A stretch of DNA of 64,000 bases from assembly GCF_902501965.1 (NCBI RefSeq), contig NZ_CABWID010000010.1:124001-188000 (forward strand), written 5' to 3'. The first letter of the stretch is position 1. The number at the start of each line of letters is the position of its first letter. The position numbers and the translations under genes were made by a program. The notes under the pieces are model-generated. The model saw nothing but the letters and a program-made list of their open reading frames with translations. It was not told the origin of the DNA and searched no databases. The stretch is from Collinsella sp. AK_207A (GTDB taxonomy: Bacteria; Actinomycetota; Coriobacteriia; Coriobacteriales; Coriobacteriaceae). This document shows positions 913-31,832 of this stretch, one piece after another.

Positions 913-1379
913 CGCGACCTCCTCACCCGCCCACAGTAGTCCGCCACCCACCATGGATTCCATGCCGAAAAAATTCCTAATTGTGAAGCACATTTTCATG
1001 AATCGGGTTTTCGCAGGTAGCATTTGGTGTTTTTTTCGAACCGGGGGCTGGAGCACGCGGAAGTGTCCGTACCGTTTACCGATGCGCAATCGGTGAGTGG
1101 CTGTTTTGAAATGCCTGTAAACAAATGTTCGCGAAGATGGGGCATGGATAGGGCACCGGATGCGCGGGTGGCCCGGCCTGGCCGGTTGCCCATCAGCACC
1201 GTCTGCGCGGAGCCGCTGAAAGATCGTCTCCGGTTCGATCGTGCACGCGCGCGGAGCTGGGCGACGGAGTGCGCTCGGCCTGTCCGGCCCTATGGCGCAG
1301 CGCATCTTCTCGCTTCGGAAAACCGGCGTCGTGGAAGCGCGGACGCCGTATCGCTACCCTTTCCGTGGAGGCGATGTAC
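913..1379. other. Divergent intergenic region before the GH89 gene
   Basis: A 467-base gap between two divergent genes. It has a T-run around 1029-1036 and one clear inverted repeat (1078-1094). I see no convincing protein frame in it: the short frames on both strands lack ribosome sites and family resemblance. It should hold the promoters of the PRD regulator and of the glycosidase. Confidence 0.5.
1078..1094. promoter_or_regulatory. Candidate operator: ACCGAT-N5-ATCGGT inverted repeat
   Basis: A perfect 6-5-6 inverted repeat, ACCGATGCGCAATCGGT, sits in the divergent gap about 290 bases before the GH89 start. Its symmetry and position suggest a repressor or activator site. The cognate protein is unknown; the adjacent PRD regulator is one possibility. 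Confidence 0.35.
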
Positions 1380-3470
1380 ATGAGCACTATCCAGGCGCTG
1401 AACGATCTGGCGGCTCGCGTTCTCGGACCGGGGCCCGCCGGGGGCATTCGGTTCCATCTTCGTTCCGGTAACGTGCACGAGGACGGGGACTGGTTCTCCC
1501 TCGAGGACGGAGATCCGGGGCAGGTGGTCATCGCCGGCAACACGGGAATATCGCTGGCTGCCGGCCTGAGATGGTACCTGGCCTACCGGATGAACATCAG
1601 CTTCGATCCGGTCTTCCTCCCCTCGACGCACGGCGCTCTGCACGGAGCAGCGACGGTGGCGGACGGACCGCTGCCGCCGGTGGGTGAGCGCGTCCTGCGG
1701 CAAACGCCGTTCACCTACCGCTACGCGCTCAACTACTGCACGTATTCCTACAGCATGGCCTTTTGGACCTGGCGGGAATACGAACCGTTCCTCGACTGGC
1801 TCGCCCTGAACGGGGTGAACCTCGTCCTCGACATCGTCGGGCAGGAGGAGGTCGTGCGCCGGCTGCTCATGCGCCATGGCTATACAGACGAGGAGGTCCG
1901 CCGCTACCTGCCCGGGCCCGCGTACCTCGCGTGGTTCCACATGGTCAACCTGTGCGGCACGGGCGGCCCGCTGCCCGCATCCTGGTTTGTGGACCGCCTC
2001 GAGCTCGCCCGACGCATCCACGCGCGCATGGCGGCGTTCGGCATGGAGCCCGTCATGCCCGGCTTCTCCGGCGCGGTCCCGGCGGACCTACCGCAGCACG
2101 ATCCTCGCGCCCGCGTCCTCAACCTGGGCGACTGGTTTGGTATCACCCGCCCCGCGATGCTGGAGGTCGGTGCCGAGGGCACCGCGGCGGACGCCTATTT
2201 CTCCCAGATGGCGCACGCCTACTATGACATCCAGGACGACCTCTTCGGCGGGATCGCCCGCCACTACAGCGTGGACCCCTACCACGAGGGGAAACCCCCG
2301 GCGGGCGTGAACATCGCGCAGGTGTACCAGGCGGTGCAGCGTGCGATGCTTGCACACCGGCCCGGTGCGACCTGGGTGATGCAGCAGTGGGAGGGCAACG
2401 TCACGGACGAGAAGCTCGCAAGCCTCGTCGAGCCGCAACGCGCGCTCGTCCTGGACCTGCACAGCGAGGTCCAGACTGAGGAGGGACCCACCGAGCGCGC
2501 CGGGGTCCCCTGGATCTGGTGCGAACTGGGCAACTTCGGGGGCCGCAGGGGCATCACGGGGCCGCTCGACGTGGTCGCACGCGTACCTGAGCTGCCCGGG
2601 CGCCACCCCCACCTGTGCGGGATCGGACTGACGGCCGAGGCCCTGGAGGGGTCGCCCGCCGTCTTTGACCTGCTGTTCGAAACCGCCTGGCACAATGCGG
2701 CGGTCGACGTGCGGGGATGGCTCCGCGCGTGGTGTACGCGGCGATACGGCGCGGCAAACGAGCACGCCATCGCGGCGTGGGGCAGCCTGCTGCGCGGAGT
2801 GCTCCACGCACCGCGGACCCCGCGCGACCAGGAACCCGTCGAGTCCGTTGTGTGCGCCGTCCCGAGCATCGATCCCCCGGCCAAGGTCTCGCCCGTGGGC
2901 CACTGCGACGCGGACTACGATCCCGCGGACGTCGAGCACGCGATGGATGAGATGCGGCACGCCGAGGACGCGCTGGGGGATACCGAGGCGTTTCGCTGCG
3001 ACCTTATCGATATACAGTGCCAGATGCTCACCGACCGCGCTCGCTCGCTCCAGCGGGAGATGGAGCACGCCTATGGGGCCGGGGACCTCGACGCGTACCG
3101 GGACGCCACCGCCCGGTTCCTGGAGCTGATCGATCAACAGGATGCGCTGCTCGCCGGGGAGGAGCGCTCGCGGCTCGCGCGGTGGACGGAGCGGGCGCGC
3201 ACCGTGCTGCCTGATATAGATGGGGAGACGGAGCGGCGCTTCGTGCTCAACGCGCTCAGTCAGGTGACGACGTGGGACATGGGCGGGAGCGCTACGCTCA
3301 TGGATTACTCGAACCGCCAGTGGAATGGCCTGCTCTCCGGCTACTACCGCGCGCGCTGGAGCGTGCACATCGCGAACCGCACCGCCGAGCTGGAAGGTCG
3401 GGGCCCCCACCCCGACCCGGACTGGTTCGCCTGGGGCCAGGCGTGGGTGCGCCGCCAGGCTTCGCTGTAA
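1380..3470 (+). CDS. Alpha-N-acetylglucosaminidase, glycoside hydrolase family 89, apparently cytoplasmic
   Basis: The protein has 696 residues and matches the NAGLU/GH89 family along its length. Hallmarks are the aromatic N-terminal block ALNYCTYSYSMAFWTW followed by DWLALNGVNLVLDIVGQEEV, the stretch PVMPGFSGAVP, YHEGKPP, PWIWCELGNFGG, and GIGLTAEALEGSPAVFDLLF, which carries the candidate catalytic glutamate region. GH89 enzymes release terminal alpha-linked GlcNAc, as on gastric mucin and heparan-type glycans. The start at 1380 is preferred over 1374 because GTGGAGG lies nine bases upstream; starts further upstream add a low-complexity Arg/Ser-rich stretch. There is no signal peptide, no carbohydrate-binding module and no anchor, and the length is that of the catalytic core. 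It is therefore probably intracellular and acts on imported oligosaccharides (inference). Confidence 0.85.
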   Translation: MSTIQALNDLAARVLGPGPAGGIRFHLRSGNVHEDGDWFSLEDGDPGQVVIAGNTGISLAAGLRWYLAYRMNISFDPVFLPSTHGALHGAATVADGPLPPVGERVLRQTPFTYRYALNYCTYSYSMAFWTWREYEPFLDWLALNGVNLVLDIVGQEEVVRRLLMRHGYTDEEVRRYLPGPAYLAWFHMVNLCGTGGPLPASWFVDRLELARRIHARMAAFGMEPVMPGFSGAVPADLPQHDPRARVLNLGDWFGITRPAMLEVGAEGTAADAYFSQMAHAYYDIQDDLFGGIARHYSVDPYHEGKPPAGVNIAQVYQAVQRAMLAHRPGATWVMQQWEGNVTDEKLASLVEPQRALVLDLHSEVQTEEGPTERAGVPWIWCELGNFGGRRGITGPLDVVARVPELPGRHPHLCGIGLTAEALEGSPAVFDLLFETAWHNAAVDVRGWLRAWCTRRYGAANEHAIAAWGSLLRGVLHAPRTPRDQEPVESVVCAVPSIDPPAKVSPVGHCDADYDPADVEHAMDEMRHAEDALGDTEAFRCDLIDIQCQMLTDRARSLQREMEHAYGAGDLDAYRDATARFLELIDQQDALLAGEERSRLARWTERARTVLPDIDGETERRFVLNALSQVTTWDMGGSATLMDYSNRQWNGLLSGYYRARWSVHIANRTAELEGRGPHPDPDWFAWGQAWVRRQASL

Positions 3471-3604: not shown

Positions 3605-4570
3605 TTACGCGGTGATGCGCGTGCCGGACAGGCCGGCCATGGTCTCGGCGGCCTTGTCCAGCGCGCCGATGATGCAGGTGCGGCCCTTGCGGCTGCGCGC
3701 GAACTTGATGGCGGCGCGCACCTTGGGCTCCATCGAGCCCTTGCCGAACTGGCCCTCGTCGGCGAGCCTCTCGGCCTCGTCGGCGGAGATCTCCTCCAGC
3801 TCCTTCTGGTCGGGCTTGCCGAAGTTGATGGCCACGTGCTCCACGGCGGTCAGCAGGAACAGCACGTCGGCCTGGCAGTCCTCGGCCAAGAGCTCGCCGC
3901 CCATGTCCTTGTCGATGACGGCGGCCACGCCCTTGTAGCAGCCCTTGTCCGAGTAGTCGCGGACCACGGGGATGCCGCCGCCGCCGCAGGCGATGACGAT
4001 GAACTCGTTGTCCAGCAGGTTGAGGATGGAGTCCGCCTCCACGATCTTCTTGGGATCGGGGCTCGCCACCACGCGGCGCCAGCCGCGGCCGGAGTCCTCC
4101 ACGAAGGTCATCTCCGGGTTCTCCGCCATAATCTGCTTGGCCTGCTCCTCCGTGTAGAACGGGCCGATGGGCTTGGTGGGGTTGGCGAACGCGGGGTCGT
4201 CCGGGTCGCACTCGATCTGGGTGATGACCGTGGCGGCGTGCCAGCGCTTGTAGCGACGGTGCATCTCGCGGCCGATGCCCTGCTGCAGGTGGTAGCCGAT
4301 GTAGCCCTGGCTCATGGCGCCGCACTCGGGCAGGTCCATGGAGGGGATCTTCTCGTCAGCCTCGTGCGCGGCGGCGAAGGCGTTCTGGATCATGCCGACC
4401 TGCGGGCCGTTGCCGTGGGTGATGATGATCTCGTTGCCTTGCTCGATGAGGCCCAGGAGGGCGTGGGCGGCGTTGCCGACCTTCTCGATCTGCTCGGCGG
4501 GGTTGTTGCCCAGCGCGTTGCCGCCGAGCGCGACGACGATGCGGTCCGGCTTGCCAAGGGGCTTGGACAT
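3605..4570 (-). CDS. arcC: Carbamate kinase (copy 1)
   Basis: The protein has 321 residues. Family motifs are VVALGGNALGNN at the N-terminus, THGNGPQVG, CGAMSQGYIGYHLQQ, ACGGGGIPVV and VIDKD. It reversibly makes ATP and carbamate from carbamoyl phosphate and ADP. The start MSKPLGK follows AAAGGA in a good position. It is transcribed alone, with its own terminator. No arginine deiminase or transcarbamylase gene lies beside it, so its source of carbamoyl phosphate is not shown here. A close paralogue with long stretches of near-identical DNA lies at 22598-23560. Confidence 0.95.
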   Translation of the reverse strand: MSKPLGKPDRIVVALGGNALGNNPAEQIEKVGNAAHALLGLIEQGNEIIITHGNGPQVGMIQNAFAAAHEADEKIPSMDLPECGAMSQGYIGYHLQQGIGREMHRRYKRWHAATVITQIECDPDDPAFANPTKPIGPFYTEEQAKQIMAENPEMTFVEDSGRGWRRVVASPDPKKIVEADSILNLLDNEFIVIACGGGGIPVVRDYSDKGCYKGVAAVIDKDMGGELLAEDCQADVLFLLTAVEHVAINFGKPDQKELEEISADEAERLADEGQFGKGSMEPKVRAAIKFARSRKGRTCIIGALDKAAETMAGLSGTRITA

Positions 4571-5023
4571 GGGGGTTCCTTTCTGTCGTTTGACTCGCAT
4601 GTGCTCGAGTCGTTGATACCGTGCCTCTCCGTGTTCCCGCGGATGCTTGGATTATATTCCGCTTTGTTGTTTGTTTATACATTTCTAACAAGAATGAGGC
4701 GAAAGGTCGAAATCGGCCGATAGGCGTTCCAACTTGTGATAGTTTATCAATCTCACAGGTACTTCACCATAATGCAGTGCTCTGCGCTCAGGTTTCCCCA
4801 CAGGTGCGGAATGTGCATATCTAATCCAGCCTTCACATTTGTATGCATATTTGTAATTCGCACCGCACGTTATGGCACAGGCTTTTGGATATGGCACCCG
4901 TCGTGTGGTTCCGTTGAGACCCCGCGCACCCCCGCCCCCAGCTAGCGGGCATCCACTATAGTTATCTGCGCTACAAACAGGAAAAGGTCGCTTGAACCAG
5001 CGATGACCAGCCAGGGAGTGGGC
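4571..5023. other. Divergent intergenic region between arcC and the MurT-like operon
   Basis: A 453-base gap that is richer in A+T than its surroundings. On the minus strand a perfect TATAAT (plus-strand positions 4651-4656) is a likely -10 box for arcC; I could not pick a convincing -35. On the plus strand TATAGT at 4957-4962 may be the -10 of the MurT-like operon. No coding sequence is recognised. Confidence 0.4.
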
Positions 5024-6379
5024 ATGAAGGCGCTTCGTTTCTACGTTGGACTTTGGCTCGGCAAGCTTGCCGCCGCCGTCATCAATCTTATAGACAAGAA
5101 CCGGGGCACCAACACCCCCGGCGTGGTGGCGATGAAGATCTGCCCCAACTTCCTGAGCATGCTGAAGGACATCGATTATCAGAAGATGGTCTTCATCACG
5201 GGCACCAACGGCAAGTCCACCTCAAACAACATGTTCATCCATGCGCTCAAGACCGCCGGCAAGTCGGTCACCACCAACCTCTCCGGCGCGAACCTCATCA
5301 CCGGCGTGGCCACCGCCATGCTCCACAGCGCATCCCTGACCGGCCACGTGAACACTGAGTTCTTTGTCTTTGAGACCGACGAGCGCTTCCTGCCCAAAAT
5401 CTACAAGCACCTGCCCGCCAAGAACATCTGCATCACTAACATCCAGAAGGACCAGGTGCAGCGCAATGGCGAACCCGACTACATCTACAAGATCATCCGC
5501 GACGTGCTCAACAAGGACGTCACCGTCTTCGTGAACGATGACGAGCCCCGATGCAAGTCGCTCGGTGCGTACGCCGGTCGCGTGGTGCGCTACGGCGTTG
5601 CCAAGAACGACCGTTCCTTCACCAAGGACGGCTTCTACGACGTGGGCATGCCCTGCCCGCATTGCGGTCACGCGCTCCGCTTCCACTCCTACAACATCGA
5701 TAACGTGGGCAGCTACACCTGTCCCTCGTGTGGTTTCTCCGGCGGTGCGGACGCCGACTGTCGCATCGACTCCGTGAACTACCAGGCGGGCACCTTTACC
5801 TGCGGCGACCGCACCTACGTGGCGCGCTACACCGAACCCTACTTCCTGTACGGTTACGCGCTCTGCCTGGCGCTCTGCAACGAGCTGAACGTGCCGCTCG
5901 ACCAGGTGGCCGCTTCGTTCAAGACGTTCAAGAACATCGGTGGGCGCCTGGAGAACCTCTCCTACAAGGGCAAGACCATCAAGTACATCCGCATCAAGCA
6001 GGAGAACCCCGAGACCTTGCAGAGCGCCTTTGACTTTGTGGCCCGCGACCCCGAGCCCAAGCTGCTCATGCTCGGTCTAGAGCAGCTCGAGGACTTTCAG
6101 CCGTACTACACCAACACGTTCTACGCCTTCGACTGCGACGTTGACGCCCTCATCCACGCCAACCTGGAACGCGTGATCTGCTTCTCCGAGGCCGTGGCGT
6201 ACGACACCGCCAACCGCCTGATCTACGGCGGCATGGACCAGGAGCGCATCTCCGTGCTCCCCACCGACAGCGACGACGCGCTACTCGACGAGCTTGACAA
6301 GTTCGATTGCGAAAACGTGTACCTGATCACCTGGCTCCACAAGTACGAGGAGCTTGAGCGCGATATTCCCCAGCGATAA
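5024..6379 (+). CDS. MurT-like Mur ligase (DUF1727-type C-terminus), divergent
   Basis: The protein has 451 residues. The N-terminus has one hydrophobic segment (about 4-23) and then the family string TPGVVAMKICPNFL. The Mur-ligase ATP site is FITGTNGKST (about 57-66). A four-cysteine zinc ribbon (CPHC about 211, CPSC about 233) sits in the central domain, as in MurT. MurT normally works with GatD to amidate the D-Glu of lipid II. The C-terminal domain here keeps the fold pattern (RIKQENPETLQ, RLIYGGMD, LITWLHKYEELERD) but I cannot find the ND..ADG.D.SW-type block that carries the catalytic aspartate in classical MurT. The start follows GGGAGTGG; an ATG at 5003 would add seven residues and has a poorer site. 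It leads a three-gene operon. Substrate uncertain. Confidence 0.75.
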   Translation: MKALRFYVGLWLGKLAAAVINLIDKNRGTNTPGVVAMKICPNFLSMLKDIDYQKMVFITGTNGKSTSNNMFIHALKTAGKSVTTNLSGANLITGVATAMLHSASLTGHVNTEFFVFETDERFLPKIYKHLPAKNICITNIQKDQVQRNGEPDYIYKIIRDVLNKDVTVFVNDDEPRCKSLGAYAGRVVRYGVAKNDRSFTKDGFYDVGMPCPHCGHALRFHSYNIDNVGSYTCPSCGFSGGADADCRIDSVNYQAGTFTCGDRTYVARYTEPYFLYGYALCLALCNELNVPLDQVAASFKTFKNIGGRLENLSYKGKTIKYIRIKQENPETLQSAFDFVARDPEPKLLMLGLEQLEDFQPYYTNTFYAFDCDVDALIHANLERVICFSEAVAYDTANRLIYGGMDQERISVLPTDSDDALLDELDKFDCENVYLITWLHKYEELERDIPQR

Positions 6380-6397
6380 CGCAGGAGGCAACCTGGC

Positions 6398-7147
6398 ATG
6401 ACCGTACCCAATCTGAACATCACCTGGTGCTATCCCGACATCCTCAACCTGCACGGCGACCGTGGCAACATCATGGCGCTCGAGCACGTGGCCAAGCTCA
6501 TGGGCGTCGATGCGCCCGTCACGCGCGTGAACGACCTGGACGATCCCATCGACTTCGAAGCCGCGGATATCCTGTTCTTCAACGTGGGCGAGATCAAGAG
6601 CGCCATCGCCGTGGGCCGCGCGCTCGCTCCGCACGCCGACGCACTCGCTGCCTACGTGAACGCCGGTAAGGTCGTGTTTGTCGTGGGCACCACGGTCTGC
6701 GCGTTCGCCGAACAGACCACCATGCTCGATGGCTCCGTTGAGGCTGGCCTGGGCCTCCTCAAGCTCAGCTGCACCGAACGCGAGCTCGTCTTTGGCGACG
6801 ACCTCATCTTCACCGCGCCCGACTACGGCTTCGACGTGAACGGCAGCGAGATCTCGCTGGTAGACACGCATCTAAACCCCGGCACCACGCCGCTTGGCAC
6901 CGTGCGCTACGGCCGCGGCAACGACGGCACCAAGACCGAGGGCGCGCGCGTGAAGAACCTCTTCTTCACCAACTGCCTGGGTCCCGTACTCGTCAAGAAT
7001 CCCTGGCTCGCCGAGGATCTACTTCGCGAGGCGCTCAAAGCCAAGGGCGAGAAGCTGCCCGAGCGCGTTGACACCAAGCGCTACGACCTAGAGCTTAAGT
7101 CCATGGAGTGCATCAAGCGCTACAACGAGACGAAGGGTGAGCGCTAA
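6398..7147 (+). CDS. GatD-like class I glutamine amidotransferase fold protein lacking the catalytic Cys and His
   Basis: The protein has 249 residues, the usual GatD length. It matches GatD at LNLHGDRGNIMALEHVAKL, AGLGLL, YGRGNDGTKTEG and KNLFFTNCLGPVLVKN. In active GatD the nucleophile elbow reads like TICGGYQ; here the aligned residues are VVGTTVC (95-101), with Gly97 in place of Cys. The catalytic His of the YLHGP motif is replaced by Leu194 in NCLGP. The nearest Cys residues are 101 and 193. The oxyanion-side GGG motif is also lost (FFNVGE, 60-65). It probably cannot hydrolyse glutamine and may be a structural partner of the MurT-like ligase. It lies 18 bases after that gene, and its stop overlaps the next start (TAATG). 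The comparison uses remembered S. aureus GatD motifs. Confidence 0.75.
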   Translation: MTVPNLNITWCYPDILNLHGDRGNIMALEHVAKLMGVDAPVTRVNDLDDPIDFEAADILFFNVGEIKSAIAVGRALAPHADALAAYVNAGKVVFVVGTTVCAFAEQTTMLDGSVEAGLGLLKLSCTERELVFGDDLIFTAPDYGFDVNGSEISLVDTHLNPGTTPLGTVRYGRGNDGTKTEGARVKNLFFTNCLGPVLVKNPWLAEDLLREALKAKGEKLPERVDTKRYDLELKSMECIKRYNETKGER

Positions 7148-8226
7148 TGGAGGTCTCCAACCGCCCCTACCCCTCCGTCGAAATCAAAATCGACCGCATT
7201 CTGGAGAACGCCCGCACCGTGCAGGGCATCTGCCGCGAGCACGGCATACGCCTCTCCATGGTCACCAAGGTGCTCTCCGACAACCTCGAGGTGGTGAGCC
7301 ACCTCGTCGACGCCGGCATCGACTGCATCTGCGAGGCGCGCATCGACAACCTCATCAGCTACCGTGAGCTCGACGTGGAGAAGTGGCTCATCCGCATCCC
7401 CATGCTGAGCGAGGTCAAGGACGTGGTGCGCTTTGCCGACGCCAGCCTGAACTCCGAGATGGAGACCGTGCGTGCGCTCAACCGCGAAGCCGCCCACCAG
7501 CACCGCGTTCATAACGTGATCCTGATGTACGAGCTGGGCGATTTGCGCGAGGGCATGATGCGCGACGAGCTCATGGCCTCCGTGCGCGAGTTCGGCGAGC
7601 TCGAGAACGTGCACCTCTACGGCTTGGGCGTCAACCTGAGCTGCTATGGCCAGGTGCTCCCGAGCGAGCGCAACATGGCCGAGTTCCGCCAGGTCGTGCG
7701 CGATGTTGAGGAAGAAATCGGTCGTCCGCTGGAGATCGTCTCGGGCGGTAACTCGACCTCTATGGAGATGCTCGTGGCCGGCACGCTGCCCCCCGCCATC
7801 AACAACCTCCGCATGGGTGAGGCCATCTTCTTTGGCAACCTGCCCTGCAAGGACCGCCCCATCGACTTCTTGAACCGCGACAACTTTGTGCTCAGGACGC
7901 AGATTATCGAGCTCAAGGAGAAGCCCTCCATGCCCTGGGGCAACCAGGGCGATGTGAACGCGCTGGGCGTGAGCACCCAGTTCGTGGACCGCGGTATCCG
8001 CAAGCGCGCCCTCGTGGCCCTTGGACGCCAGGATGTGAACCTCTACGACATCCAGCCGCTCGACAAGCAGATCAACGTGCTCGGCTGCAGTAGCGACCAC
8101 ACCATCCTGGACGTGACCGATAGCGAACGCGATTACAAGCTCGGCGACATCGTCGAGTTCCGCCTCGACTACGCCGGCCTCCTGGCGCTCATGACCACCA
8201 AGCACGTGAGCCGCAAGATCGTATAG
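7147..8226 (+). CDS. PLP-dependent amino-acid racemase, ornithine/alanine racemase-like (fold type III)
   Basis: The protein has 359 residues and the Orr/YhfX-like branch of the alanine racemase N-terminal domain family. The motif MVTKVLSDNLEVV (about 38-50) carries the probable PLP lysine in TKV. DCICEARIDNL, GGNSTSMEML and NNLRMGEAIFFG are typical of the barrel. Members interconvert L and D forms of ornithine or related amino acids; the substrate cannot be read from sequence. The ATG overlaps the stop of the GatD-like gene by one base (TAATG), so the two are probably translationally coupled. This links the racemase to the MurT/GatD-like pair and suggests that it supplies or removes a D-amino acid for the ligase (inference). 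Confidence 0.85.
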   Translation: MEVSNRPYPSVEIKIDRILENARTVQGICREHGIRLSMVTKVLSDNLEVVSHLVDAGIDCICEARIDNLISYRELDVEKWLIRIPMLSEVKDVVRFADASLNSEMETVRALNREAAHQHRVHNVILMYELGDLREGMMRDELMASVREFGELENVHLYGLGVNLSCYGQVLPSERNMAEFRQVVRDVEEEIGRPLEIVSGGNSTSMEMLVAGTLPPAINNLRMGEAIFFGNLPCKDRPIDFLNRDNFVLRTQIIELKEKPSMPWGNQGDVNALGVSTQFVDRGIRKRALVALGRQDVNLYDIQPLDKQINVLGCSSDHTILDVTDSERDYKLGDIVEFRLDYAGLLALMTTKHVSRKIV

Positions 8227-8362: not shown

Positions 8363-11899
<3,537 letters not shown>

Positions 11900-12282
11900 A
11901 TACCCCTCTCCTCTCGTTTGGGTGTACATGTGCGGCGACCGTGGCGAGCGGCCCGCCTGCGGATGGCATATCCACATTCGCCGTCATTGTACCCCCGCGC
12001 ACGGGCATAGTTAACGTTATCTCTGAGCGGTAGGGAGAACATTTCCGCAGGTTAACCGTTGGAAACCAACAGGGACCGGGGCGGGGTGGGGTATGGCGGT
12101 TGCGTGGTAGGCGGGTTGGGGCGGACGTGGGCTGACGCGAGCCAATGCGGACGTTTTTCCAGATAAACAATTTGGTAGATGGACGACTGACCTGACAGGC
12201 GTTTTCGCTTCAAATGAACCCGAAACGGCTGGAAAAGCGAGACGCGACACAAGTACATACAGGACGAGGGCCGCAAAAGTGC
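11900..12282. other. Intergenic region upstream of PFOR
   Basis: A 383-base gap. Apart from the PFOR promoter I see no gene. The part beyond 12060 has a purine-rich stretch (GGGGCGGGGTGGGG-like) and then more A+T, without a clear repeat or structure. Confidence 0.4.
11986..12014 (-). promoter_or_regulatory. Sigma-70-type promoter of PFOR
   Basis: On the minus strand, TTAACT (-35, 12009-12014) and TACAAT (-10, 11986-11991) are separated by exactly 17 bases and lie about 87 bases before the PFOR start. Match and spacing are good for a housekeeping promoter. Confidence 0.6.
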
Positions 12283-22597: not shown

Positions 22598-23560
22598 CTA
22601 GCCGGTGATGCGCGTGCCCGAGAGGCCGGCCATGGTCTCGGCGGCCTTGTCCAGCGCGCCGATGATGCAGGTGCGGCCCTTGCGGCTGCGCGCGAACTTG
22701 ATGGCGGCGCGCACCTTCGGCTCCATGGAGCCCTTGCCGAACTGGCCCTCGTCGGCGAGCTTTTCGGCCTCGTCGGCGGTAAGCTCATCTAGGTCCCGCT
22801 GCTCGGGCGTGTTGAAGTTGATGGCGACCTTCTCTACCGCCGTGAGCAGGAAGAGCACGTCGGCCTGGCAGTCCTCGGCCAAAAGCTCGCCGCCGGCATC
22901 CTTGTCGATCACCGCGGCGATGCCCTTGTACGCGCCCTTATCCGAGTAGTCGCGCACCACGGGGATGCCGCCGCCACCGCAGGCAATGACGATGAACTCG
23001 TTGTCGAGCAGATTGAGAATGCTCGTTGCCTCGACGATCTTCTTGGGCTCGGGGCTCGCCACCACCCGGCGGTAGCCGCGGCCGGAATCCTCCACGAAGG
23101 TCATCTCGGGATGCTCCGCCTGCTCGGCCTCGGCCTGCGCCTTGGTCAAGAACGGCCCGATGGGCTTGGTGGGATTCTGGAACGCCGGGTCGTCCGGATC
23201 CACCTCCATCTGTGTCACCACCGTTGCCACGTGCCAGCGCTTGTAGCGCTTGTGGAGCTCGCGGCCGATGCCCTGCTGCAGGTGGTAGCCGATGTAGCCC
23301 TGGCTCATGGCGCCGCACTCGGGCAGGTCGATCGCGGGCGTACCGATCGCCTCGTGCGCCGCGGCGAAAGCGTTCTGGATCATGCCAACCTGCGGGCCGT
23401 TGCCGTGGGTGATGATGATCTCGTTGCCCTGCTCGATGAGGCCGAGCAACGATTTAGCTGCATTGCCGACCTTCTCGATCTGTTCGGCAGGATTGTTGCC
23501 GAGGGCGTTGCCTCCGAGCGCGACGACGATGCGGTCGGGCTTGCCAAGGGGCTTGGACAT
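22598..23560 (-). CDS. arcC: Carbamate kinase (copy 2), in the allantoin-type operon
   Basis: The protein has 320 residues with the same motifs as copy 1 (VVALGGNALGNN, THGNGPQVG, ACGGGGIPVV, VIDKD). The two differ mainly in the middle (for example HEAIGTPAIDLPEC against HEADEKIPSMDLPEC, and FLTKAQAEAEQ against FYTEEQAKQIM). It is the last gene of a purine-catabolic operon, where it would turn carbamoyl phosphate from oxamate carbamoyltransferase into ATP, ammonia and CO2. The start follows AGGAGA. It matches the role of AllK/YbcF in E. coli. Confidence 0.95.
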   Translation of the reverse strand: MSKPLGKPDRIVVALGGNALGNNPAEQIEKVGNAAKSLLGLIEQGNEIIITHGNGPQVGMIQNAFAAAHEAIGTPAIDLPECGAMSQGYIGYHLQQGIGRELHKRYKRWHVATVVTQMEVDPDDPAFQNPTKPIGPFLTKAQAEAEQAEHPEMTFVEDSGRGYRRVVASPEPKKIVEATSILNLLDNEFIVIACGGGGIPVVRDYSDKGAYKGIAAVIDKDAGGELLAEDCQADVLFLLTAVEKVAINFNTPEQRDLDELTADEAEKLADEGQFGKGSMEPKVRAAIKFARSRKGRTCIIGALDKAAETMAGLSGTRITG

Positions 23561-23641
23561 GGGAATCTCCTCTTCTTGGGTGAAACGGGGCGCGCCCAAA
23601 GACGCACCCGCTCAAAAGTGCTTACGTACGTGTCCGTCGAG

Positions 23642-24694
23642 CTACTCCGCAAAGCGGTTCTTGTGGTCCCAGCTGTGGCGATACAGGTCGTCGCTCACCA
23701 GGTAGTCGTAGATGTCGTCCACGATCTCGATGCCGCCGGCGTCCTTGGTCGCCTGCACGCGGGCGGCGCCGCGCTGGCCGGGCCAGTACACCTTGTCGAA
23801 GCCCACGCCCGGCTTGACCTCGTTGAGCTCCTCAATCACCTGCGTCATGGCCTCGCGGAACGCCTGGCCGCCGCAGAAGAAGTCGGGGTTGATGGCCACG
23901 TTCAGATGACCCAGGCGCCGACCCTCGGAGAGGTCGTGGTACATGGACGACACATGCTTGCCCGCGGGCACGCCCAGCAGCACGCCGGACAGGATGTCGA
24001 CGAGCATCATGAGACCGTAGCCCTTGGGGCCGGCGATGGCCACGAGCGCGTTCACCTTGTGCGGATCGGTGACGGGCAGGCCATCCTCGTCCACGGCCCA
24101 GCCCTCGGGAATAGAGCGGCCGGCGCTCTTGGCATCGAGGATCTTGCCCCACGCCTGCACGGTCGTCGCCATGTCGAAGCTCACGATGCGGTCATCGACC
24201 GTGGGTGCGGCGATGGCCAGCGGATTGGTGCCGTAGAACGGCTCGGCGCCGCCGTAGGGAATGACCATCGGGTCGGATTGCGTGCAGGAGAGGCCGATCA
24301 TACCCTCCTTGGCGGCCATCTCGGTGTAGTAACCGATGGCACCCGTGTGGCCCACGTTGGAGACGCCCACCATGCCGATGCCGTTCTCCTTGGCCATGGC
24401 GATGGCCTTGCGCATGCCCTCGATGGCGAAGGGATAGCCGCAGCCGTTATCGCCGTCGAGGATGCCAGTGCAGGGACCGGTCTGGGTCCAGGTCACCTTG
24501 GGGTCGATGGTAGTGCCGCCCTTGGAGATGCGCTCGGTGTAGTACTCCACGCGCACCTCGCCATGGCTGTGCAGGCCGTGCTCGGAAGACCAGGTCATGA
24601 CCTCAGCCATGTCCTCGGCGTGGTCCTCGTGCATGCCAGCGGCCATGAACTTGTTCTTCATCAGGGACTTGAGTTCTTCGCGGGTGACGAGCAT
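23642..24694 (-). CDS. allD: Ureidoglycolate dehydrogenase (AllD-like; malate/L-lactate dehydrogenase family)
   Basis: The protein has 350 residues, the length of E. coli AllD. Family signs are SSEHGLHSHGEVRVEYY, MVGVSNVGHTGAIGYYTEMA, PYGGAEPFYGTNPLAIAAP, FDMATT and GPKGYGLMMLVDILSGVLLG. Such NAD(P)-dependent enzymes oxidise 2-hydroxy acids. With carbamate kinase and the oxamate carbamoyltransferase proteins in the same operon, ureidoglycolate to oxalurate is the best-fitting reaction. Other 2-hydroxy acids cannot be excluded by sequence alone. It lies upstream of arcC on the same strand. Confidence 0.82.
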   Translation of the reverse strand: MLVTREELKSLMKNKFMAAGMHEDHAEDMAEVMTWSSEHGLHSHGEVRVEYYTERISKGGTTIDPKVTWTQTGPCTGILDGDNGCGYPFAIEGMRKAIAMAKENGIGMVGVSNVGHTGAIGYYTEMAAKEGMIGLSCTQSDPMVIPYGGAEPFYGTNPLAIAAPTVDDRIVSFDMATTVQAWGKILDAKSAGRSIPEGWAVDEDGLPVTDPHKVNALVAIAGPKGYGLMMLVDILSGVLLGVPAGKHVSSMYHDLSEGRRLGHLNVAINPDFFCGGQAFREAMTQVIEELNEVKPGVGFDKVYWPGQRGAARVQATKDAGGIEIVDDIYDYLVSDDLYRHSWDHKNRFAE

Positions 24695-24805
24695 AATGGC
24701 TCCTCTTTTTTCCGTATCCGGGCACCGCGCCCGGATGCATTACCAAATACGAAGGGGCTCGTGGACTCGTTGCTCGAGCCCGCGCCGGCACCGCCGTCGG
24801 CCGCT

Positions 24806-26077
24806 CTAGGCCGTCGGCGCCCCCGTGCCGTTGAAGACGTCGTAATCGATCGCGTCCTCGCTCTTAGCCACGAGCAGGGCGCAAAACACGTCGGAGTTCA
24901 CGTTCAGCGTGGTGCGGATGGCGGCCACGATGTACTCCAGGCCACCCAGGATCGCTATGGCTTCCATGGGCAGACCGAGCGCCGGAATGAGCATGGTCAG
25001 CGAGATGAGCGAGGCGCCCGGGGCCACCGCGTTGGCGAGCGAGAGCATCCACGCAATGAACGCCACGGTGATGAGCGCCGGGCCCGCGAACTCCATGTCG
25101 TACATCTGCGACACGAAGATCGCCGTCACCGCCATGTGCAGCGCCGAACCGTTGGAGTTCAGCGGCACGCCCAGCGGCAGTACCAGATCGGCGATACTCT
25201 TCTTGAGGCCGATCTTGTTCTTGGCATCCTCCATCTCGAGCGGCAGCGTCACCGCGCTGGAGATGGTGGCGGCCGCCATGACGCTCATGGGAACCATCTT
25301 GGCAAAGAGCTTCCCCATGGGCATTTTGCAGTACGCGGACACCACGATGAGCCAGAGGACGGTGAAGACCGCCGTGGTCCCGGCAAGCACCAGGATGTAC
25401 TTGCCAATGGGAACGAGCACGTCCAGACCAAGCTCACCGATGCTCGCGGACACGTAGGCGAAGATGCCGATGGGCGCCACGTTCATCACGATCTTGATGA
25501 TCTGCAGCAGTACCTCGTTGAGGTCGCAAATCCAGGCATACACCGAGACCTCGGCGCCGTCACGCGCCTCACGCACCAGGATGATGGCGATGCCGAAGAA
25601 CAGCGAGAACACGATGCAGGGCACCATGGAGCCCGTGGCAACCGCGCTCACAATGTTGCTCGGGAAGAAGCCCGTCAGCGTGTCGGCAAGCGTGGTGGTC
25701 ACGGCTTCGGCGTCGGAGCTGGCGTTCAGCACCAGCGAGCTCTCGGAAAGGCCGGCGCCCGGCTTGAAGATGAGCGCCGAGCCCATGCCGAACGCGGACG
25801 CCAACAGCGAGGAAATGAGGAACGCCGCGGCGGCCTTGAGACCCACGCTCGAAAGCTGCTTTTTGGTGAGCGATCCCACCGCCTCGATGATCTGGCACAT
25901 CACGAAGGGAACGATGCCCATCTGGATGAGCCGGAAGAAGATATCGCCCAGAAACTTGATCTGGCTCATGGACGTTCCGCCCACGAAACCGGCGGCGATA
26001 CCGGCGACCATGGCAATAACCATGCCGACGGTCGAGTTGTACCTGAACTTCCGGGCACTCGATTTGGATTCGGTCAT
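24806..26077 (-). CDS. Dicarboxylate/amino acid:cation symporter (DAACS), copy B
   Basis: The protein has 423 residues and about eight transmembrane helices. Signature strings are the N-terminal GDIFFRLIQMGIVPFVMCQI, the serine-rich loop MAAATISSAVTLPLEME, and the substrate-site helix LPLGVPLNSNGSALHMAVTA followed by VAPGASLISLTMLIPALGLP. It is a Na+ or H+ symporter for an acidic solute. In this operon the substrate may be allantoate, ureidoglycolate or a related purine breakdown product (inference). The start MTESKSS is chosen because longer frames run through a non-coding leader. It follows copy A after a 280-base leader. Confidence 0.85.
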   Translation of the reverse strand: MTESKSSARKFRYNSTVGMVIAMVAGIAAGFVGGTSMSQIKFLGDIFFRLIQMGIVPFVMCQIIEAVGSLTKKQLSSVGLKAAAAFLISSLLASAFGMGSALIFKPGAGLSESSLVLNASSDAEAVTTTLADTLTGFFPSNIVSAVATGSMVPCIVFSLFFGIAIILVREARDGAEVSVYAWICDLNEVLLQIIKIVMNVAPIGIFAYVSASIGELGLDVLVPIGKYILVLAGTTAVFTVLWLIVVSAYCKMPMGKLFAKMVPMSVMAAATISSAVTLPLEMEDAKNKIGLKKSIADLVLPLGVPLNSNGSALHMAVTAIFVSQMYDMEFAGPALITVAFIAWMLSLANAVAPGASLISLTMLIPALGLPMEAIAILGGLEYIVAAIRTTLNVNSDVFCALLVAKSEDAIDYDVFNGTGAPTA

Positions 26078-26357
26078 GTGAACCACTGTCCTATGGGGAC
26101 ACCACTCTCCCCCGTATAGGCCGATAGACATACCGACAGGCTCCTGTACAGCCTGGCGCGGCAGCCGCTTCTCCCGGTGGAGCGATCCGCCAAGGAGAGA
26201 GAGGCACAAGGCTTTTAGGTCCGAGTGGGGACCAACCTCGTTGCGGGACGAACCCGCCGAACACGAGCTAAGGTGCCCGCCGGTCGAGAAAGGAGACACA
26301 GGTGCCAACCAGCGGGCTTGATTCGATACCGGGCGCGGAAAGCCCGGACGGGTTAGG
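26078..26357 (-). promoter_or_regulatory. 280-base leader between the two symporter genes, with hairpins
   Basis: This is unusually long for an operon gap. Near 26328-26350 a CCGGGC/GCCCGG hairpin follows the copy A stop. Further along the minus strand GGTCC-N6-GGACC sits inside GAGG...CCTC arms. I compared it with known riboswitch motifs (guanidine, THF, purine) and found no match. It may hold a terminator for copy A and an internal promoter or attenuator for copy B. Confidence 0.4.
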
Positions 26358-27650
26358 CTAATCGGTCAGATGACGGGACCAACCCTCGACGTACTCCGTC
26401 TTTCCGTCGAAGATGTCGTGGTTGATACCCTTGGGACCGGCCACGATCATGGCCGCGAAGACGTCGCCGCACACGTTCAGCGGGGTGCGGGAAGCACCCG
26501 TGGGGTACTCCAGGCCGCCGAAGATGCCGATCGCCTGCATGGGCAGGCCGAGGGCCGGCACCATCATGGTGAGAGACACGAGCGAGGCGCCCGGGGTGGC
26601 GGCGTTCACGAAGGCGATCATGCCGCAGATCACCCACACGGTGAGCAGGTCGTTGGGACCAAAGACCACGCCGTACATCTGGGCGATGCAGAGCGCGTCC
26701 ACGGCCATGTGCACAGCCACGCCGTTGGAGTTCAGCGGCATACCGAGCGGCAGGAGCACGTCGCAGATATCCTCGCGGATGCCGATCTTGCGCTTGGAGT
26801 CCTCCATGGCGGTGGGAAGCGTCACGGCAGAGGAAATGGTGGTGAAGGCCGTCACCATCATGCGGACCATCTTCTGCATGAGCTTGAAGGGATTTACGCG
26901 GCAGTAGATCGGCACGATGATGAAGTACGCGGTGAACATGATGAGCATGCCGGCGATCATGACCAGGAAGTACTTGACGAGGGGCAGCAGCACGGCGGTG
27001 CCCATCTCACCGATCATGGCGCTCACGTAGCAAAAGATGCCGATGGGAGCCAGGTTCATGACGGCGCGGATGATGTTCAGCAGCAGCTCGGAGACCTCGC
27101 AGCACAGGTCGTAGGCCTTGCACTCACCGTCGTGGGCCTGGCGCCAGAAGCTGATGGCCAGGCCAAAGGCCACGGCGAAAATGATGATCTGGATCATGGT
27201 GCCGTTGGAGAGCGACGCCACGACGTTGTTGCCGAAGAAGCCGGTGAGCGTGTCCTGGATGGTCATGAGCTCCGTGGCCTCGCCGTCGAACTGGGCGTTC
27301 TGCACGAGCGCGGAGTTCTCCATGCCGGCACCCGGCTGGAAGAACTCGGCCAGGCCGATGCCCACCGCCGCGGCGATGAACGTCGTGACGATGAAGACGA
27401 CCACGCCCTTGAGGCCGATGTCGCCGAGCGTCTTGGGCGTGAGGCCGCCCACGGACTTGATGATGGTGCAGAGGACGAACACCGAGATGTTCATCTGGAT
27501 TAGGCGGAAGAAGATGTCACCGATGAACTGGACATTCTTCATGGGCTCGCCGACTACCACGCCCACGATCACGGCTGCGACCATCGAGATTAGCAGGAGG
27601 ATGGTGATATCCGGACCTTTCTTCTTGGCTTTCACCTCTGTTGTTGCCAT
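26358..27650 (-). CDS. Dicarboxylate/amino acid:cation symporter (DAACS), copy A
   Basis: The protein has 430 residues and eight or so membrane segments. It shares GDIFFRLIQMNISVFVLCTI, MVTAFTTISSAVTLPTAMED, LPLGMPLNSNGVAVHMAVDA and ATPGASLVSLTMMVPALGLP with copy B and is clearly its paralogue. The start MATTEVKAKKKG follows AAAGG. It lies directly after the DUF2877 gene. Two different symporters suggest uptake of two related acids, or uptake and exchange. Confidence 0.85.
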   Translation of the reverse strand: MATTEVKAKKKGPDITILLLISMVAAVIVGVVVGEPMKNVQFIGDIFFRLIQMNISVFVLCTIIKSVGGLTPKTLGDIGLKGVVVFIVTTFIAAAVGIGLAEFFQPGAGMENSALVQNAQFDGEATELMTIQDTLTGFFGNNVVASLSNGTMIQIIIFAVAFGLAISFWRQAHDGECKAYDLCCEVSELLLNIIRAVMNLAPIGIFCYVSAMIGEMGTAVLLPLVKYFLVMIAGMLIMFTAYFIIVPIYCRVNPFKLMQKMVRMMVTAFTTISSAVTLPTAMEDSKRKIGIREDICDVLLPLGMPLNSNGVAVHMAVDALCIAQMYGVVFGPNDLLTVWVICGMIAFVNAATPGASLVSLTMMVPALGLPMQAIGIFGGLEYPTGASRTPLNVCGDVFAAMIVAGPKGINHDIFDGKTEYVEGWSRHLTD

Positions 27651-27692
27651 TATTCGAACCTTTCTCTTAAATGTAACCCGTTGAATCAATAC

Positions 27693-28595
27693 CTAGAACA
27701 GGCAGCCGAACGCCGCACCGAAGCCCAGAAGCGAGTCCGCACCGGAGGTGTGGCCCATCTGGAAGATGCGCTCCACCCGGTCGGGCAGCGCTTCGAACTC
27801 CCCCGCCGTCAGGTCCGCCGCGAGCGCCACGAAGTCCTCGTTGGCGCAACCCGCCGTCATGGCGCGCAGATACGCTTCCGAGACCGCCGTGGTGCGTCCC
27901 GGCAGCGCGTGCCTCACCGCATCCAGATACGGCGCGATGAGCGAGCCCGTGCCGTACAGCAGGTGGAGGGCGCAGCCAAAGCCGCAGAGCACGTCGTCGC
28001 CCGAAGGGGTCAGACCGAGCCCGCGGCCGAGCAGATACTCCACGCTGCCCCGCATGGCGCGCTCCGATGCCTCGTAGCGCGCGTGCACTTCCTCCTTCGA
28101 GTAGGTGCTCTTCGCCATGCCGGCAAGGCGCGCGCACGACACAGAGAACCGTGCCAGCTCTGCTACGGCACCGCGGGAGCGGTCCGGCCAGGGCAGGCCG
28201 ATGTGCTCCACCACGTCTGCTGCGGTGAGCACGCGCAGCAGCGCCACATCCGCGCCGGCGAGCGAATCCACGGCATGGGGGACGGCCAAACTCCGCACGG
28301 CCGCTTCTCCATACACCAGCTCGCTCACATCGGCCCGGCTGTAGATGCGCATCACGCCATCTCGGCAGTGCACGGCATCGCCCGGCTCGACGCGCTCCAC
28401 GAGCATCGCCATCTCCTTGGCGCCCACGGTCATGCCGAAGCACGAGAGCGGTGCCTCATCGGTCCCCACGTGTACCAACTCGCCTGAGAACTCCACGTTG
28501 AAGCTCGTTGCGAACACGCTGTGCACGCTGCCCGTACGGGACTGGGGATTGCGGACCGGAACACGGTCGCAGATGTTGAAGACGACGATGCCCAT
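27693..28595 (-). CDS. DUF2877 protein, probable oxamate carbamoyltransferase component
   Basis: The protein has 300 residues. It has the DUF2877 marks GLTPSGDDVLCGFGCAL and GHTSGADSLLGFGAAFG. In E. coli the equivalent YlbF (AllH) is needed, with FdrA (AllF) and YlbE (AllG), for oxamic transcarbamylase activity. It follows the FdrA-DUF1116 fusion after 15 bases. This tight linkage supports the same role here. Confidence 0.85.
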   Translation of the reverse strand: MGIVVFNICDRVPVRNPQSRTGSVHSVFATSFNVEFSGELVHVGTDEAPLSCFGMTVGAKEMAMLVERVEPGDAVHCRDGVMRIYSRADVSELVYGEAAVRSLAVPHAVDSLAGADVALLRVLTAADVVEHIGLPWPDRSRGAVAELARFSVSCARLAGMAKSTYSKEEVHARYEASERAMRGSVEYLLGRGLGLTPSGDDVLCGFGCALHLLYGTGSLIAPYLDAVRHALPGRTTAVSEAYLRAMTAGCANEDFVALAADLTAGEFEALPDRVERIFQMGHTSGADSLLGFGAAFGCLF

Positions 28596-28610
28596 GGCGT
28601 TACCGCGTTC

Positions 28611-31600
28611 CTACTCGATGCCCAGGCTCGCGGCGTAGGCCTCGAGCGCCTTCTCGAAGCAGGCGAGCGGGGCGCGGACGGTACCGGCGCCAACCTGGCC
28701 GATGCCCGCCTTCTTGTGCGCGATGCCCGTGTTGATGATAGGCGTGATGCCCGTGGCGACCACCTTGCGGATGTCGATACCCAGGCAGGTGCCCTTGAAG
28801 TCCCACGTGGGGATGCTCCAGTTGGAGTTGTGGCCCACGCAGATCTTCTCCATCTCGTTGGAGATGTTGAGCGCGTCCTCAAAGCCGCCGGCGCCCACGA
28901 AGCGCGTGACGCCCGGGGCCGCGACCATGGCCATGCCGCCCACGCCGACCGTCTCCGTAATGGAGGAGTCGCCGTTGTCGGGGCAGCCGTCCTCTGCCGT
29001 AAAGCCGGTGAAGTACAGGCCGACGGGCGTGTTGACAGGAGCGGTGAACCACTGGTCGCCCAAGCCGGAAACGCGCACGCCGAACTCGTAACCGTTGCGG
29101 GTCATGGTGGAGACGATGGAACCCTCAACATCTTTGCGCACGTAGTCAACGATCGCCTTGCCGGTGGCCATCATCACGTTCAGGAAGAACTGGTCGGTAT
29201 CCGCCAGGAACTGGATAACGCGCTCCTTGGCCTCCTCGGAAGCGTCGGTGCGCACGATGAGCGGCGCGACCTCCTTCAGGAAGTTGAGCGTGGCGGCCAT
29301 GTTGCGCTGGTGGAACTCGTCGCCCTGGGTAATGGCGCGGGCTATGAGCACGTTCAGGTTGATGCCGCCGTGCGCGAGTTTGAGGGCCTTGGAGAGCACG
29401 GGGGCCAGCTCGTCGGCCATCCAGTGCAGTCGGTCGACGACCTCCTGGCTGTAGGCGCCAAAGCGCAACACCTTGCCGATGCCCTCGTTCATGGTGCAGT
29501 AGGCAACGGTGTCGTCGGCCAGATTGCGCACCACGAGCACGGCCATGTTCGCGGAGGTGATGCCGCCCATGGGGCCAACGGCATGGCAGTGGTGACAGGG
29601 GATGAACTCGACCTCGCCGGCCTCGAGCAGGGCGAGCGCCTCCTCCTCGGTCTCAGCCCAGCCCTCGAAAAGCGCCGCACCGATGCAAGAGCCGCGCATG
29701 GGGCCCTGCATGTTCTCCCAGGTGATGGGAGGACCGGCATGCAGCAGCGTCTTCTGCGCGCGGTTGAGCTCGGGGATGACGTCCTTGGCCACCACGACGT
29801 CCACCAGCTGCGGCTGGCTTTCGCGGAAGCGCTGGCAGATGCGCTCGTTAGCCTCGTCGATGCCCTCGACCTTGGCGAGCTCGGTCAGCAGGTGGATCAT
29901 CCGCTTGTTACCGCCGGCCATGGGCTTCCAGTTGTACTGGACGCTCTTGGCACCGTAGGCGCGCAGCGGCTCGTTGAAGCTCTCGACGCCCACGTTGATG
30001 ACGCGCGGCTTGGTGGTAAGGAGCTCCATCACAGCCTCGCTCGGCTCGGGCACGGGCGTGGTGTCCTTGACCTCGTAGGCCACGGTGCCGCGGTCCTCCT
30101 CGGTGTAGTCGATGCCCTTGAAGGCGAGCGCCAGGCGGACGGCGCGGGCGTTGCTGGACTCCATGTGAGCGCCGGCGTCCTCGAGGATCTTGATGGAGCG
30201 GTCGTAGTCCTGCGGGTCGTGACGGGTGCCCACCACGGTGCCGACGAAATGGACCTCGCGGCCCTCGGCGGCAGCAGCGGCCTTGCACTCGGCGATGACC
30301 GGCGCCAGCTCGGATGCCATATCGGGATGGCAACCGTAGCCGAGCACGCAGTCGAACAGGATGACGCCGGTGGTGTCCTTGGCAGCATAATCGCGCATCA
30401 TCTTGATGCGGACGTCGGGATCGATCATGGGATGCGGACGGCCCTGCGTGTACACGTCGTCACCCAGGTCGATGACATCGTAGCCGTCATGGCGCAGCAT
30501 GTAGCCGTCTTCCTTGATGATGTGGCCGAGCTCGAGCGCCTCGGTAATCATCATCGCGGCCTCGCCGGCGAGCGTGCCGCCGGAGTACAGGCCGATGACG
30601 GTCTTGTCCTGCGCGAGCGGCGTCTCCACCGTCTCGGTGAGCGGCTCGCAGTAGTTGGGCTTCACCGAGTCGCCGTTGGCCAGGTCCACGGCGATACGGG
30701 CGGCCTCCTCGAGCGTGTGCGCCAAATGGACCTTGCCCAGGTGTGCCTCGGGCTTCTCGCCGATGAAGATGGCGACCACGGGCTTGCTGCACTTCTCGAG
30801 CAGGTCGACCACCTCGTCGCGCACGGCGGGCGCGGGCGGCTTTGAGATGACGCAGATGACGTCGGTGGGATCGTGGTGCTCGAGCGCCGCGATGGCGTCC
30901 TTCACCGTGACGGCGCCGACTTTCTCATTGAGGTCGCGACCACCGGTGCCGATGGCATGCACGCAGCCGCCGCCCAGGCGGTCGATCACGCAGGTGACCT
31001 CCTGGATGCCGGTGCCGGAGGCGCCAACGATGCCGATGTTGCCGGGGTTGATGACGTTGGTGAAGGCCACGGGCACGGAGGACACCACGCCGGTGCCGCA
31101 GTCCGGACCCATGAAGAGCAGGCCCTTCTCGTGTGCCTTCTGCTTCAGGCGCACCTCGTCCTCGAGCGGCACGTTGTCCGTGAAGGAGAACACGTTGAGC
31201 CCCAGGTCGAGTGCGCGCTCGAGCTCGGGCGCCGCATACTCACCGGGGATGGAGAAGAGCGCCATGTTGGCGTCCGGCAGGAGCGCCACGGCCTCCTCCC
31301 AGCTTATGGCCTCGGCGGGACCGCCCGCAGCCTCCTTCTTGGTGGACAGATCGGCCAGGAAGGCCTCGGTCTCGGCGAGTACCGTGTCCATGATGGCATC
31401 GTCGTCCGTCTCCACCACGATCACCATGTCGCTGGGGCTCGCGGCGGCGGCCTCGGGCGTCAGCAGGCCGGCGGCGTTATAGATGTCCTTATTGGCATCC
31501 GTGCCCATCATGATCTGGCTCTGGATCACGTCATCCAGCGTATTGATCTTGTTGGTCAAGAGCATCAGGTTGATGGAGTCCTGATAGCTGTTCGGCTTGA

Positions 31601-31616
31601 TCACGGTCTTAAGCAT
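28611..31616 (-). CDS. fdrA: FdrA-DUF1116 fusion, probable oxamate carbamoyltransferase
   Basis: The protein has 1001 residues. Residues 1 to about 515 match FdrA, a succinyl-CoA-synthetase-like protein (MGTDANKDIYNAAGLLTPEA; MGPDCGTGVVSSVPVAFTNV; GIVGASGTGIQEVTCVIDRL). Residues about 550-1001 match DUF1116/YlbE (LLHAGPPITWENMQGPMRGS; FIPCHHCHAVGPMGGITSAN; WFTAPVNTPVGLYFTGF; GIDIRKVVATGITPIINTGI). In E. coli these are two genes. Together with DUF2877 they phosphorolyse oxalurate to oxamate and carbamoyl phosphate. The start MLKTVIKPNSYQ follows GGGGGAGA. It is the first gene of the operon, divergent from the PucR regulator. Confidence 0.9.
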   Translation of the reverse strand: MLKTVIKPNSYQDSINLMLLTNKINTLDDVIQSQIMMGTDANKDIYNAAGLLTPEAAAASPSDMVIVVETDDDAIMDTVLAETEAFLADLSTKKEAAGGPAEAISWEEAVALLPDANMALFSIPGEYAAPELERALDLGLNVFSFTDNVPLEDEVRLKQKAHEKGLLFMGPDCGTGVVSSVPVAFTNVINPGNIGIVGASGTGIQEVTCVIDRLGGGCVHAIGTGGRDLNEKVGAVTVKDAIAALEHHDPTDVICVISKPPAPAVRDEVVDLLEKCSKPVVAIFIGEKPEAHLGKVHLAHTLEEAARIAVDLANGDSVKPNYCEPLTETVETPLAQDKTVIGLYSGGTLAGEAAMMITEALELGHIIKEDGYMLRHDGYDVIDLGDDVYTQGRPHPMIDPDVRIKMMRDYAAKDTTGVILFDCVLGYGCHPDMASELAPVIAECKAAAAAEGREVHFVGTVVGTRHDPQDYDRSIKILEDAGAHMESSNARAVRLALAFKGIDYTEEDRGTVAYEVKDTTPVPEPSEAVMELLTTKPRVINVGVESFNEPLRAYGAKSVQYNWKPMAGGNKRMIHLLTELAKVEGIDEANERICQRFRESQPQLVDVVVAKDVIPELNRAQKTLLHAGPPITWENMQGPMRGSCIGAALFEGWAETEEEALALLEAGEVEFIPCHHCHAVGPMGGITSANMAVLVVRNLADDTVAYCTMNEGIGKVLRFGAYSQEVVDRLHWMADELAPVLSKALKLAHGGINLNVLIARAITQGDEFHQRNMAATLNFLKEVAPLIVRTDASEEAKERVIQFLADTDQFFLNVMMATGKAIVDYVRKDVEGSIVSTMTRNGYEFGVRVSGLGDQWFTAPVNTPVGLYFTGFTAEDGCPDNGDSSITETVGVGGMAMVAAPGVTRFVGAGGFEDALNISNEMEKICVGHNSNWSIPTWDFKGTCLGIDIRKVVATGITPIINTGIAHKKAGIGQVGAGTVRAPLACFEKALEAYAASLGIE

Positions 31617-31723
31617 CGCATCTCCCCCTTTATATCGAGCGCGTTTCGTGCTGTTGGCGGCGGCGCGAGCCCGGGTGATCGCACCGCCGCCGTGGTAGCA
31701 TCCATTCAACCATTCGGGATATT

Positions 31724-31739: not shown

Positions 31740-31832
31740 CCGGATAGCGAAGCGCCGCTTTCTTTTCCCGAAATGGAAATGACCCGATCTCGGCCATGCA
31801 GGTAAGGTTGAGCTGCGTGAAATGAGGTGTCC

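Follow-up and report, generated by a model that had tools for sequence, protein, structure and literature searches.

What becomes of a MurT-GatD pair, which normally amidates cell wall precursors, once its glutaminase is gone? The question is raised by three genes of Collinsella sp. AK_207A, which lie in a window of 64,000 nucleotides (the whole stretch of DNA that was analysed; contig NZ_CABWID010000010.1, positions 124,001 to 188,000) and code for a MurT-like ligase, a GatD-like subunit and an ornithine-racemase-like enzyme. Our answer, to which we give a probability of roughly 0.55, is that the trio may be an ATP-dependent ligase system that links the D-Glu at position 2 of the wall precursor to D-ornithine or a related amino acid. 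The pair within it is a real, conserved and apparently undescribed MurT-GatD variant and a candidate branch ligase for group B walls.

The genes are packed on the + strand with intergenic gaps of 18 and -1 bases, and the coordinates bear out the layout given in the first-pass annotation, which had been made from the letters alone:

5024 to 6379, + strand: MurT-like Mur ligase, 451 amino acids, with a zinc ribbon insert (profile matches, AlphaFold2 model, Foldseek)
6398 to 7147, + strand: GatD-like pseudo-glutaminase, 249 amino acids (NCBIfam GatD, AlphaFold2 model)
7147 to 8226, + strand: ornithine-racemase-like pyridoxal phosphate enzyme (Orr), 359 amino acids (NF040742, Ala_racemase_N)

Glutaminase residues and ligase core of the pair

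The product of the first gene has the MurT fold with a MurT_C domain (48.2 bits, cut-off 25) and an ATP site, and it also matches Mur_ligase_M and NCBIfam MurT (E 1e-43). The proteins of its closest solved structures are the MurT of S. aureus and of streptococci, and the AlphaFold2 model (predicted local distance difference test, pLDDT, 88.1) had MurT of S. aureus, S. pyogenes and S. pneumoniae as its top Foldseek matches. An alternative in-frame ATG lies at 5003; the start at 5024 has GGGAG upstream and agrees with that of the relatives. The second product matches NCBIfam GatD (E 1e-22), and the top PDB match of its model (pLDDT 95.5) is S. aureus GatD (6h5e_A, Z 32.1, 1.8 Å over 241 residues). 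Scores stayed below the NCBIfam equivalog cut-offs (NF045635, 149.5 bits against 800; NF045636, 80.5 bits against 400).

For comparison, we fetched 41 close relatives of the ligase (42–58% identity), mostly from Clostridia (Mogibacterium, Family XIII, Eubacteriaceae), and call this kind of pair the window type. A GatD-like gene adjoins MurT in 39 of the 41. Three positions of the window pair correspond to the glutaminase triad (S. aureus numbering for the reference residues):

6686 to 6688, + strand: Gly97 of the GatD-like protein, at the site of catalytic Cys94
6977 to 6979, + strand: Leu194 of the GatD-like protein, at the site of catalytic His189
6113 to 6115, + strand: Asn364 of the MurT-like protein, at the site of MurT Asp349, the third member of the triad

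The first-pass annotation had described the GatD-like subunit as lacking a catalytic Cys or His. This proved correct, and the losses are clade-wide: among the adjacent GatD-like proteins of the relatives, Cys is missing in 39 of 39 and His in all 38 that cover the site, which therefore cannot be put down to chance. What that annotation had not seen is that the MurT-borne residue is likewise lost, and Asn at this site is invariant across the clade. In S. aureus, Asp349 of MurT completes the catalytic triad across the GatD interface. The C94G and C94S mutants of that species abolish amidation, and D349N does so according to the figure legend or severely reduces it according to the text (PMC6113224). 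Given these mutants, the window pair naturally holds two changes that inactivate the enzyme in the laboratory, C94G and D349N, in addition to the loss of His189. Judged from these residues, glutamine hydrolysis is predicted to be lost in the window pair and across its clade. Decay of the trio into pseudogenes was ruled out by the intact frames and by the identical losses kept in 39 related GatD loci, and an assembly oddity by the wide occurrence of the window type in Clostridia.

The ligase, by its residues, presents a different picture. Its relevant features are as follows:

5201 to 5218, + strand: P-loop GTNGKS of the MurT-like gene
5441 to 5464, + strand: IQKDQVQR, which replaces the canonical FFRDQMDR loop, invariant in 41 of 41 rows
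5996 to 6016, + strand: KQENPET, which stands where classical MurT has K--NPAG and is two residues longer, in 41 of 41 rows

Along with the P-loop, the Mg-binding Glu117 and the zinc-ribbon cysteines are kept. A further new motif, YTNTFY (Tyr-x-Asn-x-x-Tyr), replaces GRDTSW and is fixed in 41 of 41 rows; remoter members vary slightly (KQENPDTL, YINTFY, KNGNPET), with KQENPD/ETL in the group of Eubacterium limosum and Acetobacterium woodii. Since the ATP and Mg residues are kept and the new motifs are near-invariant, the ligase is evidently not dead and appears to be under selection for a changed job.

The first explanation to be weighed is that this job has hardly changed: the ligase would still make D-isoglutamine, now from free ammonia, with GatD as a scaffold only and the racemase serving something else. 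The gut and the rumen are rich in ammonia, and both in the window and in relatives the pair has arcC, the gene of an ammonia-releasing reaction, as a neighbour. Moreover, at pH 8.5 the MurT-GatD of S. aureus accepts ammonia, GatD still being required, yet it is the loop equivalent to FFRDQMDR, described in S. pneumoniae as the putative lining of an ammonia channel at the GatD interface (PMC6085368 for both), that is rewritten here and near-invariant. Orr, besides, tracks the pair, and group B lineages, which carry an amino acid on the same carboxyl, have dead pairs twice over. We regard free ammonia as less likely, and this explanation as a whole as improbable. As for the changed chemistry proposed in the first-pass annotation, the clade-wide dead glutaminase and the conserved ligase core with its new motifs speak for it; the choice of amine is something that we infer.

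The racemase and the proposed incoming amine

The third gene matches the Orr profile NF040742 over its full length (E 7e-127), at 423 bits, which is below the curated cut-off of 480 bits, and it has an Ala_racemase_N domain as well. It is the sole Orr of the window genome. Among the relatives, Orr directly follows the pair in at least 12 of 41, a minimum since some loci end too early. Full-length Orr occurs in 31 of the 34 carrier genomes, and the same number, 31 of 34, have exactly one MurT_C gene. When 67 Eubacteriales genomes were considered, the window type was found in 44; Orr was present in 41 of these 44 carriers vs 4 of the 23 non-carriers (Fisher p 4e-10, uncorrected for shared descent). 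In one genome (G806), in which no Orr was found, a window-type dead pair occurs alongside a classical one.

No Orr was found in the other genomes of the window's order (about 115 genomes in a class-wide sample). Because no other sampled genome of the order has it, Orr arrived in the window lineage together with the pair. A co-expressed racemase as partner of the ligase, which the first-pass annotation had suggested, thus holds with respect to adjacency in 12 of 41 relatives, presence in 31 of 34 carrier genomes and joint arrival; it holds less well in that Orr is non-adjacent in most.

In the mechanism that we propose, Orr would turn L-ornithine into D-ornithine. With ATP, the MurT-like ligase would activate D-Glu at position 2 of a peptidoglycan precursor on its alpha-carboxyl (S. 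aureus MurT acts on lipid II), and in place of ammonia this carboxyl would then receive D-ornithine or a related amino acid, bound through an amino group. Having given up glutamine hydrolysis, the GatD-like subunit may have been kept as a structural partner which closes the active site and probably helps to bind the amino acid. Finally, the added residue would become the bridge of a group B (2-to-4) cross-link. We infer D-Glu as the acceptor from MurT homology and the group B correlation described below, and the Orr linkage suggests D-ornithine as the donor; use of the added residue in cross-linking is a presumed last step.

Orr and the pair might also be mere neighbours, with Orr feeding ornithine fermentation and the ligase acting on an unrelated acceptor outside peptidoglycan. 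Orr is indeed catabolic in ornithine fermenters, and in one genome (G759) the higher-scoring Orr stands beside arcA/arcB-like genes. Some carriers hold two Orr copies, though, one high-scoring and one not, and the Orr of E. limosum and A. woodii lies outside any recognisable ornithine-degradation cluster, with their pair adjoining a glmM-like gene. In other genomes murE adjoins the pair, being directly upstream at five loci. All this makes the explanation by chance neighbourhood very remote. At two loci (L049 and L065), a window-type MurT stands beside murE with no adjacent GatD-like gene.

Group B walls and the possible use of the added residue

In group B peptidoglycan, it is the alpha-carboxyl of D-Glu that bears the bridge amino acid, and MurT modifies this same carboxyl. 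The group B prediction was set down before group B organisms were looked at. E. limosum ATCC 8486 and A. woodii, the wall of which we take to be group B, turned out to carry exactly the window type, with Gly and Leu in GatD, KQENPDTL in MurT and a single MurT match each. Ser, Orn and Lys are present in the wall of E. limosum ATCC 8486 (PMC4791908); for its genus, the listed wall type is B2alpha (PMC11382707). A 2-4 linkage with a diamino acid is mentioned in PMC6085368. It is the association with Orr and these carriers of known group B wall chemistry that lead us to propose a changed donor and a role in the wall.

A second case came from a family (f79) that was reached through genome G482, with 85 genera sampled, and identified as Microbacteriaceae. 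Group B walls containing D-Orn, diaminobutyric acid or Lys are found in members of this family (PMC5945732, PMC10757982, PMC7033078), and the GatD Cys was lost in 44 of the 46 genomes examined. Racemase-type genes adjoin some of these dead pairs; in G482, a gene with only Ala_racemase_C and an alanine-racemase-like gene come after the pair. In the other Actinomycetota examined, outside Coriobacteriaceae and Atopobiaceae, the classical residues are kept. A Leifsonia plasmid copy, considered as a named example of a dead pair in Microbacteriaceae, was ruled out because its GatD is canonical; this plasmid, from Leifsonia shinshuensis, carries a classical MurT-GatD beside a VanY-like peptidase.

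Coriobacteriaceae and Atopobiaceae related to the window genome carry a distinct glutaminase-dead pair, here called type 2, which has Gly or once His at the Cys site, while its His site is occupied by Leu, Ile or Cys. The window type is a single clade in the MurT tree (100/100), and an all-dead clade (100/97) unites it with type 2, further dead pairs and two rows from Microbacteriaceae. The main clade of Microbacteriaceae stands apart as a loss of its own. Some Microbacteriaceae (L217-L222) have a different dead pair with His at the Cys site and the motif THNALEV, which groups with type 2 and not with the main family clade.

Dead pairs are thus present in the group B organisms E. limosum, A. 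woodii and Microbacteriaceae. This suggests a wider reading, to which we give slightly less than even odds: glutaminase-dead MurT-GatD complexes would be the missing ligases of group B peptidoglycan, and the change from ammonia-using amidase to amino-acid ligase would have taken place at least twice, in the clade of Clostridia/Coriobacteriia type and in Microbacteriaceae, accompanied in the case of the trio by a dedicated D-ornithine racemase.

Several observations weigh against the trio's proposed role. Orr is missing in 3 of the 44 and 3 of the 34 carriers, is non-adjacent in most, and turns up in further families of the class where no close MurT accompanies it. The wall chemistry of E. limosum points to Lys besides Orn (PMC4791908). 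Atopobium parvulum has a related but distinct type 2 dead pair together with an A4alpha L-Lys-D-Asp wall, so a lost glutaminase is by itself no proof of a group B wall. The MurE of several window-type carriers, including four that have the full trio, shows DNPR, the meso-diaminopimelic acid (mDAP) type, which suggests a type A wall where the D-Glu substituent need not cross-link. Dead pairs, then, also go with type A walls.

These observations fit in part with another explanation, namely that D-Glu receives a different amine (polyamine, glycine, D-Lys, D-Asp or other) from the pair, as a simple substituent with no cross-link, D-ornithine being used in some members or none. Some Firmicutes are known to bear cadaverine or putrescine on D-Glu, and the mixed MurE motifs, mDAP type included, the carriers without an adjacent Orr and the A4alpha wall of A. 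parvulum all favour such a view. It accounts poorly for Orr in 31 of 34 carriers and its co-acquisition in the window lineage, and we consider it unlikely. D-ornithine, or a related amino acid, as the bridge residue is still the reading that we prefer. Diagnosis of group B from MurE motifs was set aside since their pattern is mixed: DNPA in E. limosum and A. woodii, HHPR in Microbacteriaceae and EEDPA in the window genome. The latter has two tandem murE-like genes (G000:C19:67880-71033), both with EEDPA instead of DNPR.

A search of the accessible literature found no paper on the trio, of which the first-pass annotation had also known no description as a unit, or on a group B ligase that puts the bridge residue onto D-Glu. 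The chemistry of group B walls was worked out decades ago, and the pair offers a named gene and a target carboxyl for the bridge step, in organisms that are tractable (A. woodii, E. limosum, Microbacterium). If our reading is true, it would show a route by which an amidotransferase of two subunits, deprived of its ammonia source, turns into an amino-acid ligase. The status of the GatD Cys, combined with K--NP vs KxxN in MurT, gives a signature that sorts true amidating pairs from mis-annotated ones.

Origin, neighbourhood and known systems

The window type is clostridial. No close relative of the trio ligase was found in 44 other genomes of the genus, and the runner-up score among 396 genomes of the phylum was 228 vs 749 bits. 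A second, classical murT-gatD pair elsewhere in the window genome, for which the first-pass annotation had advised looking, was not found in the genome search. In another family of the order, classical pairs occur fused, as single open reading frames of about 730–820 amino acids with MurT and GatD domains (eight loci).

The trio is flanked by two genes on the opposite strand:

3605 to 4600, - strand: arcC (carbamate kinase), left flank
8363 to 11977, - strand: pyruvate:ferredoxin oxidoreductase (PFOR), right flank

The type 2 pair of relatives often adjoins arcC and PFOR too. Because it sits in the same slot between them, the trio appears to have replaced a resident type 2 pair in place. The G+C content of the trio (0.60-0.63) is only slightly lower than that of the window (0.64), so there is no sign of a very recent transfer. 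arcC adjoins the resident dead pair in many Coriobacteriaceae and Atopobiaceae (nine loci).

Elsewhere in the window, an alpha-N-acetylglucosaminidase gene (NAGLU, GH89) lies at 1374-3470, upstream of arcC. Positions 22598-33464 hold a second arcC copy, a malate/ureidoglycolate-dehydrogenase-like gene, dicarboxylate carriers, an FdrA-like fusion and a PucR-like regulator. Judged from the translations only, this looks like a carbamoyl-compound degradation cluster.

Among known systems, the MurT-GatD lipid II isoglutaminyl synthase of S. aureus, S. pneumoniae and S. pyogenes is like the window pair in its two folds, gene order, zinc ribbon, P-loop and Mg-binding Glu. Unlike it, the window pair is without the C94/H189/D349 triad and has the KQENPET insertion, the IQKDQVQR loop and the linkage to Orr. 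The Orr of ornithine-fermenting clostridia (NF040742) is matched by the window racemase over its full length, but the latter scores below that profile's cut-off, and its closely packed neighbour is a wall ligase instead of an ornithine-degradation gene. The dead pairs of Microbacteriaceae (G482 type) and of type 2 resemble the window pair in having lost the GatD Cys and kept MurT; the main Microbacteriaceae clade differs as an independent loss, and type 2 as a related group with other MurT motifs (KGENSTA, TEYTGWY) and no Orr. The pseudomurein ligases pMurC and pMurE share the common Mur ligase fold and are the next best structural and hidden Markov model matches; they differ in being archaeal, in their far weaker similarity and in not forming a MurT-GatD pair.

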